Below, piece by piece: positions 18,724 through 49,979 of a stretch of 64,000 nucleotides of DNA (positions are counted from its first letter, which is position 1; each line of letters begins with the position of its first letter). The notes below the pieces were generated by a model, which saw only the letters and a list, made by a program, of their open reading frames with translations, was not told where the DNA came from and made no database searches. Both the position numbers and the translations under genes were made by a program. This DNA is from Syntrophobotulus glycolicus DSM 8271. GTDB lineage: Bacteria > Bacillota > Desulfitobacteriia > Desulfitobacteriales > Syntrophobotulaceae. The stretch covers positions 620,001 through 684,000 of the forward strand of contig NC_015172.1 of the NCBI RefSeq assembly GCF_000190635.1, written 5' to 3'.

Positions 18724-18796
18724 TTTTACATAAGATCCAAAATGGAAAGGGATACAGCCACAAGGATCACCCGGATGATTGAAGGGATACGGCCAA

Positions 18797-19702
18797 ATGT
18801 ATTACCTGGATATTGTTTTATTGATTAATGGGCTGATGGATGCCCTGATCCTCCTTTTTGCTTCCAAGCTTCTCCACCGCAGGATCTATCCCGCTTTCCT
18901 TATTTCAGGCGCTCTGCTCGGAGAAATCCCCATCCTGCTTGCATTGTTCCCGTACAATCCCCTGGTTCATTTAAGCAAAGTGATCATTCCTCTGGCCGTA
19001 GCGGGGATAGGCATGCGGGCAAGGTCCTGGGGCGATCTTTGGGAGTGCTTTCTCTATTTTACCGTTCTCACGGCCATGACCGGCGGAGCGGCTTACGCAG
19101 GAATCGTTTGGTTTGGATTAGCCGATACGGCTGCCGGCTTCAGCCTGACGCTCGATAATATCTGGCTGCTCCTGGCGCTGATCCTGGTGCTTTGCTTATG
19201 CTACAGGTTATGGGGGAAAAACAATGGTAAACAATCTTTTTTTAGTCAGGTGCTGTACCGGATCGAATTGGATTTCGGCGGCGGGTCTGTTCTGAAAACG
19301 ACGGCTCTCCTCGATACCGGAAATGAGCTGAGGGATCCCCTGACAGATAAGCCGATGATATTGATTCAGGAAAATGTTTCCTTAACAGCTTTGCCCCGGC
19401 CAATTGCCGAATTTCTGCAATGTCCGTGGCGCGATCTGGCCGACCCCTGTTCTCTGCTCTGGAACAGCAGCAATAACATCGCGGAGAGGGTGACCTTCAT
19501 TCGGGTAAAAGGAGTAAACGGCCAGAGCTGGCTGCCGGGTGTCAGATCAGTCCGGTTAAAAATAACAGAGGACGGTTCCGTCCGGGAAAAAACCGTAACA
19601 GCGGTGATTGTGCCGCAGTTATTGAGCTCGGATAACAAATTTGAAGCTCTTCTGCATCCCGATCATGTCTGCAGGGAAAAATACAGGGAGGAAATCGCAT
19701 GA
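18797..19702 (+). CDS. spoIIGA: sporulation sigma-E factor-processing peptidase SpoIIGA
   Basis: This 301-residue protein has five N-terminal membrane segments (about residues 3-150) and a C-terminal aspartic-protease domain with [11 protein letters not shown], placing the catalytic Asp at 173. In B. subtilis SpoIIGA cleaves pro-sigma-E in the mother cell after a signal from SpoIIR. The ATG at 18797 ([16 protein letters not shown]) is chosen over TTG 18779 because GAAGGG lies 10 bases upstream and homologues start this way. The stop overlaps sigE as ATGA, the classic spoIIG arrangement. Confidence 0.95.
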
Positions 19703-46411: not shown

Positions 46412-46663
46412 TCAGCAGCCTTTCAGGGCTTCAATAATCTCTTCCCATTGAAAATCCTCACTTGATTTATATTCCTTGGCATAATAAACTTTGCCACAGC
46501 CTTTGCAAATGACCTTAATGCTATGCACAAAGTCTTCCATATAAAGTTTCCCGGCCAGTTTAGGCATGTTCAGGCTGGCTTCGCAGACGATCTGCGAACC
46601 ACAGGCGGAACAGGCCAAATCCTTTTCCCGGTCATCATTGATCTGATCTTTTTCTGTATTCAT
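46412..46663 (-). CDS. small zinc-ribbon-like hypothetical protein
   Basis: This 83-residue protein has two CxxC pairs, ACSACGSQIVC and VICKGCGKVYYAKEY, suggesting one zinc ribbon. The N-terminus is acidic and polar. I do not recognise the family and no catalytic motif is seen. AGGAGG lies 7 bases before the ATG, so it is likely translated. It converges on pyrE with a 5-base gap and lies 210 bases downstream of agrD on the same strand, beyond a hairpin. Confidence 0.7.
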   Translation of the reverse strand: MNTEKDQINDDREKDLACSACGSQIVCEASLNMPKLAGKLYMEDFVHSIKVICKGCGKVYYAKEYKSSEDFQWEEIIEALKGC

Positions 46664-46782: not shown

Positions 46783-46808
46783 GGACCCGGAGGAATGATT
46801 CCGGGTCC
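46783..46808 (-). terminator. 9-bp hairpin downstream of agrD
   Basis: GGACCCGGA (46783-46791) and TCCGGGTCC (46800-46808) pair perfectly around an 8-base loop. No T-run follows on either strand, so it may be a weak or factor-assisted terminator, or an mRNA-stabilising hairpin, for the agr transcript. Confidence 0.45.
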
Positions 46809-46872: not shown

Positions 46873-46995
46873 TTAGCGCTGCAGAGACTTGGGAGTGTTG
46901 GGCTGATGAGAGAAAACAAAGCAAGCAAAAACAGAGCTGGCTGAGGCAAAGAGAAGTACAACTGAAGAGATAGCGGTGAAAAGTAGTCTTTTCAT
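46873..46995 (-). CDS. agrD: AgrD-like cyclic lactone autoinducer pre-peptide
   Basis: This 40-codon gene is too short for usual gene calls. Read on the minus strand it starts 2 bases after the agrB stop, with AAAGGGAGG inside the end of agrB as its ribosome binding site. Residues 1-24 form a basic and hydrophobic amphipathic leader (MKRLLFTAISSVVLLFASAS and four more). The core CFVFS spans Cys25 to Ser29, then HQPNTPKSLQR. The Cys plus four residues and the QPxxPKSL tail match clostridial AgrD peptides, where AgrB cleaves after the fifth ring residue and a thiolactone forms from the cysteine. Predicted signal: a five-residue ring CFVFS with a short N-terminal tail. Confidence 0.9.
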   Translation of the reverse strand: MKRLLFTAISSVVLLFASASSVFACFVFSHQPNTPKSLQR

Positions 46996-46997
46996 TT

Positions 46998-47579
46998 TTA
47001 GGACCCTCCCTTTCTTAGATTAAACAAAGGCAGCAGGGTCACAGTCTGATAGGCTATGCCCAGGGCCGCGCTTGTTCCGAGAATGATGTTTTGGGACAAG
47101 AAAACCAAAATGCTTGTCACGAGGACAAAAGCGATGGAGACCGATTTTAATTTTCGCCGGAAGCTCCGGGAATGGATGGGCTTGGCCGGACAGTCAACCG
47201 GGGCCAAAATGGCGACAACCGGGAGGCAGAGCAAGAGAATCACTAGATTCAAAGTTGAGCCGGCCAGGTTGTAAGCGATCAGGCTTTTGGCCGATAAGCC
47301 CAGAAAGGCGTAGACGACTGTTCCGATCGCCAGGCATTTGAAGGCGGAGCCGGCATGCGCCCCCCCAGAAAGCTTCCTTAAGCCCCCGCCGAAAAGGAGG
47401 GTCAAAGCTGTAAGAAGCAGAGTATCTAAAAAATAGGCCGCAAGGAGGATAGAAGCTGTACCGATGACGGCCAGAAAAATTAGTTCAAAGCCGTAGGTCA
47501 ATTCTTCTTCTTTCTCTTCGTTTAAGTCCAGACTACTGCTTAAAAGATTGCTCATTTGTTTGCTCAAGTGAGTGATCAT
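46998..47579 (-). CDS. agrB: AgrB, autoinducer-peptide processing membrane protease
   Basis: This 193-residue polytopic cysteine endopeptidase trims and cyclises AgrD. The conserved motif GGLRKLSGGAHAGSAFKC holds the catalytic His (AHA), and the catalytic Cys lies in APVDCPAKPI. Five or six membrane segments are visible. The ATG at 47579 overlaps the end of the upstream membrane gene by 47 bases and follows AAAGGAT. agrD follows 2 bases after the stop. Confidence 0.94.
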   Translation of the reverse strand: MITHLSKQMSNLLSSSLDLNEEKEEELTYGFELIFLAVIGTASILLAAYFLDTLLLTALTLLFGGGLRKLSGGAHAGSAFKCLAIGTVVYAFLGLSAKSLIAYNLAGSTLNLVILLLCLPVVAILAPVDCPAKPIHSRSFRRKLKSVSIAFVLVTSILVFLSQNIILGTSAALGIAYQTVTLLPLFNLRKGGS

Positions 47580-48030
47580 AGCGGATATCCTTTCTTTTTC
47601 GATAATATTTAATCAAGAAAGCAAAAAGAAACATCAATGAAACATGAGGCAGACCGGTAATAATTCTCAAAGACTGGCTCGACAGATAGCCTTGAGAAGA
47701 AAGGCCGAGAAGTTCAATAATATGTATACAAGCTGCTTCTGTCAGACAAAGTATGAGGAAACTTAGTAAAGTAGCAACAAGAGAAGTAAGGACACTGGCC
47801 CTGCCGACCTTGAACAGATAGAAAAAAAGAAAGGTAATCATGACAATGGTATGCAATCCAACATATACGGGATAAAATCTGATCAAATAAACAATCAAAA
47901 TGGAAAAAAACGCTCCCACAATAATTTTCCGCCAATTGAGGTCGATTTTGGCCAGGACGAAGGCTAAAGTATAGATTGCGATTCCTTCGGGAACGCCTTG
48001 AAAGATCAGTACTATTAATGGGATACGCAT
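47533..48030 (-). CDS. multi-span membrane protein resembling a detached AgrC sensor domain
   Basis: This 165-residue hydrophobic protein begins MRIPLIVLIFQGVPEGIAIY and continues TLAFVLAKIDLNWRKIIVGA, with five or six membrane segments and a short charged C-terminal tail. The early QGxPEGIAIYTLAFVLA segment and the RFYPVYVGLHTIV stretch recall, from memory, the membrane sensor half of clostridial AgrC-type receptors. No GHKL kinase domain follows. It lies between the histidine kinase (15 bases upstream) and agrB (overlapping). I infer that it senses or transports the peptide signal; alternatively it is an unrelated accessory membrane protein. CAGGAGG precedes the ATG. Confidence 0.7.
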   Translation of the reverse strand: MRIPLIVLIFQGVPEGIAIYTLAFVLAKIDLNWRKIIVGAFFSILIVYLIRFYPVYVGLHTIVMITFLFFYLFKVGRASVLTSLVATLLSFLILCLTEAACIHIIELLGLSSQGYLSSQSLRIITGLPHVSLMFLFAFLIKYYRKRKDIRYDHSLEQTNEQSFKQ

Positions 48031-48044
48031 GGGTTTTCCTCCTG

Positions 48045-49868
48045 TTAATCTGTTTGTGGTTCTTCTTTTTGTTCTTCATTGGATAAAGCAAAGCGGATAT
48101 AAAAGGTGGTTCCCTTCTCCCCGGTATCGTATTTGATGGTCGCATTGTGCCTGTTCAGGATTCCGATGGAGATCGCCAAGCCAAGACCGGTCCCGTTTTC
48201 CTTGGTCGTCAGGAAAGGCGTACCGAAGCTGTCCCGGACCTTTTGGCAAAGGCCGTGCCCGGCATCCTTAATTTCCAGAACCAAAGTGTTTTCCTCAAGA
48301 TATGTACTGATCTCCATAGAGGCGCCGGGAGGAGAGGCTTCCAGGCCATTGCGGATAAAGTTAAGCAAAACCTGTTTGATTTCCGATTCATTGAGCAGAA
48401 TTTCCGGGACCTCGCTCAGCTTCAGGTCAATGTCCTTATTGGAGTTATAGGCATCGGCCCGGACCAGGGGAAAGATCCGTTCAATGATTTGGTTGATGTT
48501 TCTCAGTTCATGGTTCTGGGTGGAGGCTTTGGCCAGGGAGAGAAAATCGTTAATGATGGCGTTGGCCCGGTCGATTTCCGAAATCATCAGGGTGATGTCT
48601 TCCTGGAGCTCCTGGCAGGTAGGATTGACGAAGAAAATCTGCAGGAAGCCTTTTACGGTAGTCATGGGGTTTCTGACCTCGTGGCTGATCCCGGCGGCCA
48701 TCTGTCCGATCAGGTTTAAGCGTTCCAGGCAGATCAGCTCCCTGGCCTGACGGTTGATGGCCGTGGTATCGCGGAAGAAGACCGATATCCCCTGAGAAAA
48801 CGGATAGGCATTGAACTCAAATTCCCTGTTGTCCGGCAGGGTCGTTTCCCAGAACAGGGGTTTGTTGTTCTGGACCGTGCTTTGCAGGATGGTCTCCAGC
48901 TCAGGGAAGAGATCGTGGAAAACCGAGCCGCGAAAGTTGCGGCCGACAAACTCTTCTTCAAAGGTCTTTTTGATGGTGTCATTGACAAACCTGAAATTGA
49001 GGTCGCTGTCGAGGGAGAAGAAGCCGTCGGAAATGCCGTCCATAATGGTCAGAAGCTCGTCATGAAGATTTCTTAAGCTCACACTGTGGTCTTGAATCTG
49101 CCGGAAGACAGGGGCCAATTCAGGCAGCTTGTCCATGGCAAACTCATTTCTCTGATTTTCATTGGAGGTGATATTTTGGGAAAAGGCCACTAATTCACCT
49201 TTGATTTGGCTGATTAGCCTTCTGATCAACAAAAGAATCAAAATAAGCAGCAAAATACTTGATCCCAGCAGAACAGCAAGGTTCAATTGGGTGTGATAAA
49301 AAATATAGGCTGAATTAAGTTTGGCCCAAACATAACCGGCATTTTGATTTTCGATATTGAGAGCCAGGAGGTTGGCAATGCATTTATTGGCGGAAGAGTC
49401 GGTATAGTTGTATTCCATAAGGAACTCCTCCGGAGACGGTCTAACTCCGGGGAAGGAGGGATCATTTGCAATATCATTACTGATCCTTAAGCCTGTATCA
49501 AAATTAATATAGCCCAAATTGATCGTAGGATATTTCTGTGTGTATTCATCAAGGACAGGACTGATGAGAACAGAGATTTCCCGGTTTTTTTCCTCCAGGG
49601 TGAGATCCCGGTAGTGGTCGGAATCATAAAATTGATCCAACTCTTTTGATATTGTTTGGTGCAAATTAAAGGTGATATTGCTTAATTCCAGTTTTTTCTG
49701 GTACATTTCCCGATTCCAATAGCTGTTATACATAAACATATAGAGAAAGATAAAAATGAAAAATACAACCAGGGATACTTTGACCAGAGCGGATTCAACA
49801 ATAGAGGTTCCTTTAGCCTTGCGGGGATTTACCGGTAAAAGGTTTCTTTTCTGTGTGAAAATATTCAT
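48045..49868 (-). CDS. PAS-domain sensor histidine kinase, sporulation-kinase type
   Basis: This 607-residue membrane kinase has one membrane segment at about 31-47, an extracytoplasmic region of about 145 residues, a second membrane segment at about 194-216, a linker, a PAS domain at about 270-370, HisKA with the phospho-accepting His396 in GISHEVRNPMTTVKGFLQ, and an ATPase domain with Asn503 (N box), DAGHG, and GTGLGLAI. HEVRNPMTTVKGFLQ is typical of KinA-E and other Spo0A-phosphorelay kinases rather than AgrC, which has a GHKL HK10 domain. No response regulator is adjacent. It heads the minus-strand operon that ends in agrD. A Spo0A box overlaps its promoter. Confidence 0.92.
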   Translation of the reverse strand: MNIFTQKRNLLPVNPRKAKGTSIVESALVKVSLVVFFIFIFLYMFMYNSYWNREMYQKKLELSNITFNLHQTISKELDQFYDSDHYRDLTLEEKNREISVLISPVLDEYTQKYPTINLGYINFDTGLRISNDIANDPSFPGVRPSPEEFLMEYNYTDSSANKCIANLLALNIENQNAGYVWAKLNSAYIFYHTQLNLAVLLGSSILLLILILLLIRRLISQIKGELVAFSQNITSNENQRNEFAMDKLPELAPVFRQIQDHSVSLRNLHDELLTIMDGISDGFFSLDSDLNFRFVNDTIKKTFEEEFVGRNFRGSVFHDLFPELETILQSTVQNNKPLFWETTLPDNREFEFNAYPFSQGISVFFRDTTAINRQARELICLERLNLIGQMAAGISHEVRNPMTTVKGFLQIFFVNPTCQELQEDITLMISEIDRANAIINDFLSLAKASTQNHELRNINQIIERIFPLVRADAYNSNKDIDLKLSEVPEILLNESEIKQVLLNFIRNGLEASPPGASMEISTYLEENTLVLEIKDAGHGLCQKVRDSFGTPFLTTKENGTGLGLAISIGILNRHNATIKYDTGEKGTTFYIRFALSNEEQKEEPQTD

Positions 49869-49898: not shown

Positions 49899-49979
49899 TT
49901 TATACGATTTAAAGCAAAAAGGGTGTCGAAATATTTGCATAATGAAAAAATAAACTGAGAATTTTTTTACTTTTCGGCA
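49899..49979 (-). promoter_or_regulatory. promoter of the kinase-agr operon with Spo0A boxes
   Basis: On the minus strand, TCGACA (49929-49924) and TATAAA (49904-49899) form a -35/-10 pair with a 19-bp spacer. The -35 overlaps an exact Spo0A box, TGTCGAA, read on the plus strand at 49924-49930. A second match to TGNCGAA, TGCCGAA, lies on the minus strand at about 49979-49973. The kinase start is 30 bp downstream of the -10. Repression or activation by Spo0A~P is possible. Confidence 0.55.

Follow-up and report, generated by a model that had tools for sequence, protein, structure and literature searches.

A split Agr receptor operon in Syntrophobotulus glycolicus, proposed to link a cyclic peptide to the sporulation phosphorelay

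How a bacterium could read an Agr-type peptide at a locus that encodes neither a complete AgrC sensor kinase nor an AgrA response regulator, and where such a signal would go, is the question raised by a four-gene operon of the anaerobic spore former Syntrophobotulus glycolicus DSM 8271 (PMC3156405). The operon occupies the minus strand at positions 46873–49868 of a 64-kb window, the whole stretch of DNA analysed here, which corresponds to positions 620,001–684,000 of the closed 3,406,739-bp genome; unless a genome position is given, coordinates refer to the window. An initial annotation had placed four genes here, in the order PAS histidine kinase, small membrane protein, agrB and a 40-residue agrD, and had proposed that a kinase standing 'instead of AgrC/AgrA' feeds the peptide signal into the decision to sporulate. 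All four open reading frames are present. The annotation's figure of 15 bases or less between neighbours holds for the gaps between kinase and membrane protein (14 bases) and between agrB and agrD (2 bases); the overlap of the membrane protein gene with agrB is longer, at 47 bases. The reading that we favour, with moderate confidence and on the grounds of sequence comparison, is that the sporulation phosphorelay takes its input from an Agr system whose AgrC is divided in two.

The first part of the answer lies in the 165-residue membrane protein (47533–48030, minus strand), which by homology is the receptor half of AgrC, separated from the kinase half. It matches the N-terminal membrane domain of the AgrC encoded in the same genome (BLASTP E 4e-12 over 124 residues), and an alignment of 46 relatives matches AgrC N-termini with an hhalign probability of 99.5% (E 4e-22, 143 columns). 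The AlphaFold model, with a predicted local distance difference test score (pLDDT) of 92, contains five transmembrane helices, with a long C-terminal helix. Scanning with the window protein alone gave no matches; detection took the 46-row alignment. The protein belongs to no Pfam or NCBIfam family above cut-off, its predicted fold resembles no solved structure, and its profile matched no PDB sequence. A sub-threshold Pfam hint of SpoIIGA identity (PF03419, E 0.003) was ruled out by an hhalign probability of 0.2%, and the SpoIIGA profile doubled as a negative control for the match to the AgrC N-terminus. Because the protein is homologous to that N-terminus, AgrC at this locus is split rather than absent, with its kinase half substituted. 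The phrase 'instead of AgrC/AgrA' is thus apt for the GHKL kinase half and for AgrA, both of which are replaced, and misses the receptor half, which is still there as a separate protein predicted to bind the cyclic peptide. Literature searches, which covered few subscription journals, turned up no account of an AgrC receptor separated from its kinase; the operon would represent a variant of Agr signalling new to description, not a categorically new system.

The putative ligand would be produced by the two genes that follow. AgrB, a peptide-processing membrane protease of 193 residues (46998–47579, minus strand), matches PF04647 in Pfam with 129 bits and carries H75 and C82 at the spacing of AgrB proteases. 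AgrD, a 40-residue cyclic-peptide precursor (46873–46995, minus strand), matches TIGR04223 in NCBIfam with 33.3 bits against a cut-off of 19. It is 40 residues long in every relative of the aligned set, in which SVFAC and QP..P are invariant and positions 26–29 vary. Since invariant flanks, SVFA on one side and (Y/H)QP on the other, enclose the variable positions, the alignment points to a five-residue ring of diversified specificity; in S. glycolicus, this ring probably comprises C25-F-V-F-S29, a thiolactone of sequence CFVFS.

The second part of the answer concerns the kinase (607 residues; 48045–49868, minus strand). Two transmembrane segments surround an extracytoplasmic alpha/beta domain and are followed by a PAS domain at approximately residues 270–370, a HisKA domain with H396 within HEVRNPMTTVKGFLQI, and HATPase_c. 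The PAS_4 assignment is marginal (23.7 bits against a Pfam cut-off of 23.1), and the closest PDB entry belongs to sporulation kinase B (3d36, E 1e-34). HATPase_c_5, the GHKL family, is not reported by Pfam, in line with the annotation's statement that the operon lacks a GHKL domain. The HisKA domains of Spo0F-directed kinases contain six specificity residues (Davidson et al. 2018, PMC6136694), which read TAGFQL in KinA, TSGFQI in KinC and TTGFQL/M/F in Desulfotomaculum acetoxidans, where one of the kinases was verified in vitro (PMC6136694). In the window kinase they read TTGFQI, and the pattern (T/S)xGFQ(I/L/M/F) recurs in 28/28 aligned full-length kinases of the window kinase's family. The absence of a response regulator from the operon was likewise correctly annotated: the nearest one in the genome lies 62.7 kb from the kinase gene. 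For 20 of the 21 HisKA kinases of the genome, a response regulator is encoded no more than 1.9 kb away, the exception being the window kinase, which is also the only one to carry the TTGFQ code among the HisKA kinases with a readable motif (a simple pattern failed for 6 of the 21).

A different division of labour has to be weighed against this arrangement, in which the extracytoplasmic domain of the kinase would itself sense the peptide and the small membrane protein would serve as an accessory for export, stability or immunity. The transmembrane-extracytoplasmic-transmembrane topology of the kinase is consistent with it, as is the precedent of KbaA, a six-transmembrane protein upstream of KinB in Bacillus subtilis (PMC6011975). 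KinB, like the window kinase in the reading proposed here, is a membrane sporulation kinase that relies on a separate multi-transmembrane protein; KbaA has no known peptide ligand. Against an accessory role stands the homology between the small membrane protein and the part of AgrC that binds the peptide; moreover, the ectodomain of the kinase shows poor conservation and is missing from the other outputs described below, and the receptor remains with agrB and agrD when the output is a GGDEF/HD-GYP protein. We therefore regard sensing by the kinase as distinctly improbable.

Whether the four genes belong together was judged from AgrB searches of 61 genomes combined with neighbourhood analysis. 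The annotation had proposed looking for a conserved gene order in relatives, and what is conserved is the linkage, in two gene orders. In the organism's own family, the kinase gene comes first, followed by one or two membrane protein genes, agrB and agrD; in the sister family (Desulfosporosinus, Desulfitobacterium and Paradesulfitobacterium), one or two membrane protein genes precede agrB, agrD and then the kinase gene. Because two families of the order keep the set in two arrangements, the linkage of kinase, receptor and agrBD has outlived rearrangement, and because dozens of genomes hold these genes, each time with an AgrD of exactly 40 residues, it is not a chance association. Mostly, the operon of relatives has no response regulator within several kilobases, and no regulator recurs beside the kinase among them; the neighbour at one locus (L315) is an ANTAR protein adjoining glutamine synthetase. 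The tandem receptors of Desulfosporosinus (L054, L056, L057, L059–L062, L065, L066) split by position into two clades; the pair therefore probably stems from an old duplication, and its members may act together, perhaps as a heteromeric receptor.

If the kinase is directed at Spo0F, the remaining relay components should be sought elsewhere in the genome, where they are encoded. Spo0F adjoins pyrG, fba and tal, and its residues, read off the sequence, are QGILEVD; Spo0B lies upstream of obg, with residues QVGYQL obtained in the same way; and two full Spo0A paralogues are present (G000:C1:2104211 and G000:C1:1903505), each gene with a 0A box, the Spo0A-binding motif, no more than 90 bases upstream. 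In the pathway that we propose, AgrB would cut, cyclise and export the AgrD peptide, probably as the thiolactone CFVFS; the detached receptor would bind it outside the cell and alter the activity of the adjoining PAS histidine kinase through the membrane; the kinase would phosphorylate Spo0F, from which phosphate would pass to Spo0B and then to Spo0A; and phosphorylated Spo0A would bind the 0A box before the operon, closing a feedback loop. The sequence itself establishes the gene content and its conservation, the receptor homology, the code and orphan status of the kinase, the complete set of phosphorelay genes and the enrichment of 0A boxes. We infer the structure of the peptide, its recognition by the receptor, the contact between receptor and kinase, the transfer of phosphate to Spo0F, and whether signal and feedback activate or inhibit.

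The feedback step relies on a 0A box 62 bases ahead of the kinase start (49924–49930; TGTCGAA on the plus strand, TTCGACA on the coding strand). The whole 64-kb window contains seven heptamers of this type, a number equal to chance expectation, and the weight therefore lies on the position of the box and its recurrence. An exact 0A box is found in the 300 bases upstream in 17/31 operons, compared with 0.67 expected from dinucleotide shuffles (maximum 5, n=200). The proximal box has one orientation in both families, despite differing first genes and promoter sequences, and four genera (L041, L044, L045, L047) have the box together with an inverted copy at a spacing of 41–43 bases.

These boxes, which tie the operon to Spo0A, also bear on a second alternative, in which receptor and kinase are real partners and the kinase acts on a regulator other than Spo0F, or mainly as a phosphatase. 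Sporulation as such would then not be the output, which might instead be genes for solvent production, motility or biofilm formation that Spo0A or a different orphan regulator controls. The specificity residues of the kinase amount to a prediction, some clostridial orphan kinases reduce sporulation (PMC11210211), and the 43 receivers of the genome include further single-domain ones, e.g. at G000:C1:3342429, all of which leave room for such a target. Set against this are the agreement of the kinase code with that of verified Spo0F kinases and the intact Spo0F and Spo0B, in addition to the 0A boxes. A different target is the strongest of the competing explanations, and still an unlikely one.

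A third alternative arises from the rest of the genome. The annotation had named a separate agrC-agrA locus as a finding that would count against its proposal if it responded to the window peptide, and such a locus does exist, at ~830.3–833.2 kb of the genome (L003:4276-7209), where a 476-residue AgrC-like kinase (SPOB_a/GHKL), AgrB, AgrD and a LytTR response regulator are encoded; a 0A box lies 66 bases upstream of its agrC. The canonical AgrC-AgrA pair could in principle read the window peptide, leaving the kinase of the operon a bystander, and the completeness of the agrC-agrB-agrD-agrA locus in the same genome is the point in favour. That locus makes its own AgrD, however, with CFFWF in the ring region against CFVFS in the window, and the linkage of kinase, receptor and agrBD is kept through rearranged gene orders. 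With an agrB of its own and an agrD unlike that of the window, the second locus is more likely a separate system, and a bystander role for the window kinase seems very improbable.

Several points weigh against a split Agr system that drives the phosphorelay. The specificity residues predict a partner for the kinase and do not prove it, and the extracytoplasmic domain is a possible sensor in its own right. A HisKA_3-type kinase at ~2.811 Mb of the genome also has no adjoining response regulator, which would leave room for other routes to Spo0A, and cross-talk could occur between the second agr locus and the window operon. An exact 0A box is absent upstream of 14/31 operons, including all four of genus g3 of the organism's own family, and the 31 operons come from related genomes and are not independent samples. 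Finally, the receptor frame of one g3 genome (G002; L043, C1 ~877.3 kb) is interrupted by stops. The missing boxes and the broken receptor of this genus could reflect relaxed selection in a lineage that sporulates little, or another role. The annotation's proposal of a peptide signal that enters the decision to sporulate is strengthened by TTGFQI, by the sole orphan HisKA kinase, by Spo0F, Spo0B and Spo0A, and by the 0A box and the conserved operon; its interpretation as a whole, in which 'instead of AgrC' is only half right, is partly supported.

Detached receptors extend well beyond this operon. The receptor profile, which was built from stand-alone proteins and is hence biased towards them, matches in 49/83 genomes of the class and in 132/398 genomes sampled across the phylum; among 150 listed phylum matches, 129 stand alone as short frames and 21 form part of fusions. 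The outputs encoded beside receptor, agrB and agrD in 40 neighbourhoods, some of which hold two, are GGDEF(/HD-GYP) proteins (22), HisKA kinases (11), hybrid kinases (4) and separate GHKL kinases (4); example outputs are assigned by Pfam to GGDEF, HD_5 and GAF-HisKA-HATPase-REC. Loci in which receptor, agrB and agrD are followed by a membrane GGDEF/HD-GYP protein include L283, L285, L291, L293, L297, L299 and L141–L145, among others; they point to what is apparently a peptide-to-cyclic-di-GMP system, spread over many families of Bacillota.

The N-terminal membrane domain of these GGDEF outputs, approximately 180 residues long, is homologous to that of most kinase outputs not of the window type (E 1e-20 to 1e-50). 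It has only sub-threshold Pfam matches, to PF25323 and DUF4118, and of its 79 strongest matches in the 398 genomes, 58 have a detached receptor no more than 4 kb away; it has the look of a coupling domain in the membrane, one that would take up the signal from the separate receptor. The domain is absent from window-type kinases, which have the transmembrane-extracytoplasmic-transmembrane front end instead, and a search of S. glycolicus gave no matches. Because kinases with the coupling domain (L295, L300, L304, L311, L130) also bear TTGFQx, the pairing of a detached receptor with a phosphorelay-type kinase occurs with two sensor front ends; TTGFQ kinases accompany detached receptors in unrelated families too. 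In five relatives of the organism's own family (L109, L110, L113, L116, L121), the gene immediately after agrD encodes a GGDEF protein that carries the coupling domain, and kinase and cyclic di-GMP outputs therefore coexist.

With staphylococcal-type Agr, the operon shares the histidine-cysteine pair of the AgrB protease, a TIGR04223 AgrD and an AgrC-type membrane receptor domain; it differs in that the receptor is a separate protein, the kinase is of the HisKA/PAS type rather than a fused GHKL kinase, and no AgrA is found at the locus. With KinA–E of B. subtilis and Dtox_1918 of D. acetoxidans, it has in common an orphan kinase gene, PAS, HisKA residues of the TTGFQx type and Spo0F, Spo0B and Spo0A in the genome, whereas the operon of the window kinase also encodes a peptide signal system together with the receptor for it. 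In Clostridioides difficile, Agr peptides promote sporulation and their receptor is not known (PMC10602386). The agrB1D1 genes of that species, considered with RgaS-RgaR, are likewise agr peptide genes without linked agrC or agrA (PMC10602386), while the window operon itself holds a candidate receptor and kinase. Four split AgrC loci (L068, L069, L313, L318) also have a receptor frame apart from the kinase frame and adjoining agrB and agrD; their kinase is still GHKL and AgrA (LytTR) is kept, making them a possible evolutionary intermediate.

The surroundings of the operon complete the description. A 10-bp GC-rich hairpin (46783–46808) between agrD and the convergent pyr operon probably marks a terminator region; promoter and terminator scans at the operon gave numbers about those of chance. 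Beyond the hairpin, downstream of agrD, lies a gene for an 83-residue CxxC zinc-ribbon-like protein (46412–46663, minus strand) with a weak match to a dual-CXXC selenoprotein family. The same window contains spoIIGA (18779–19702, plus strand), ~27 kb from the agr operon.

The activators of sporulation kinases are largely unknown, and the receptors by which clostridial agrBD genes promote sporulation where no agrC accompanies them are still to be identified. Here, one transcription unit encodes a peptide, the protease that makes it, a stand-alone receptor and a kinase bearing the Spo0F code, the sole orphan HisKA kinase of the genome. The arrangement suggests that population density bears directly on whether spores are formed, and it makes quorum-peptide control of sporulation entry directly testable. 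For orphan agrBD loci, the analysis offers a searchable receptor family, and it presents the AgrC receptor as a plug-in sensor for cyclic di-GMP enzymes as well as kinases. On balance, and by a slighter lean than for the phosphorelay itself, we think that stand-alone AgrC-type receptors form a widespread, unnamed Bacillota class that would signal sideways in the membrane to interchangeable partners (cyclic di-GMP enzymes, hybrid kinases and phosphorelay kinases), many of which share the coupling domain; in Syntrophobotulus, such a receptor may be the main gate to sporulation.

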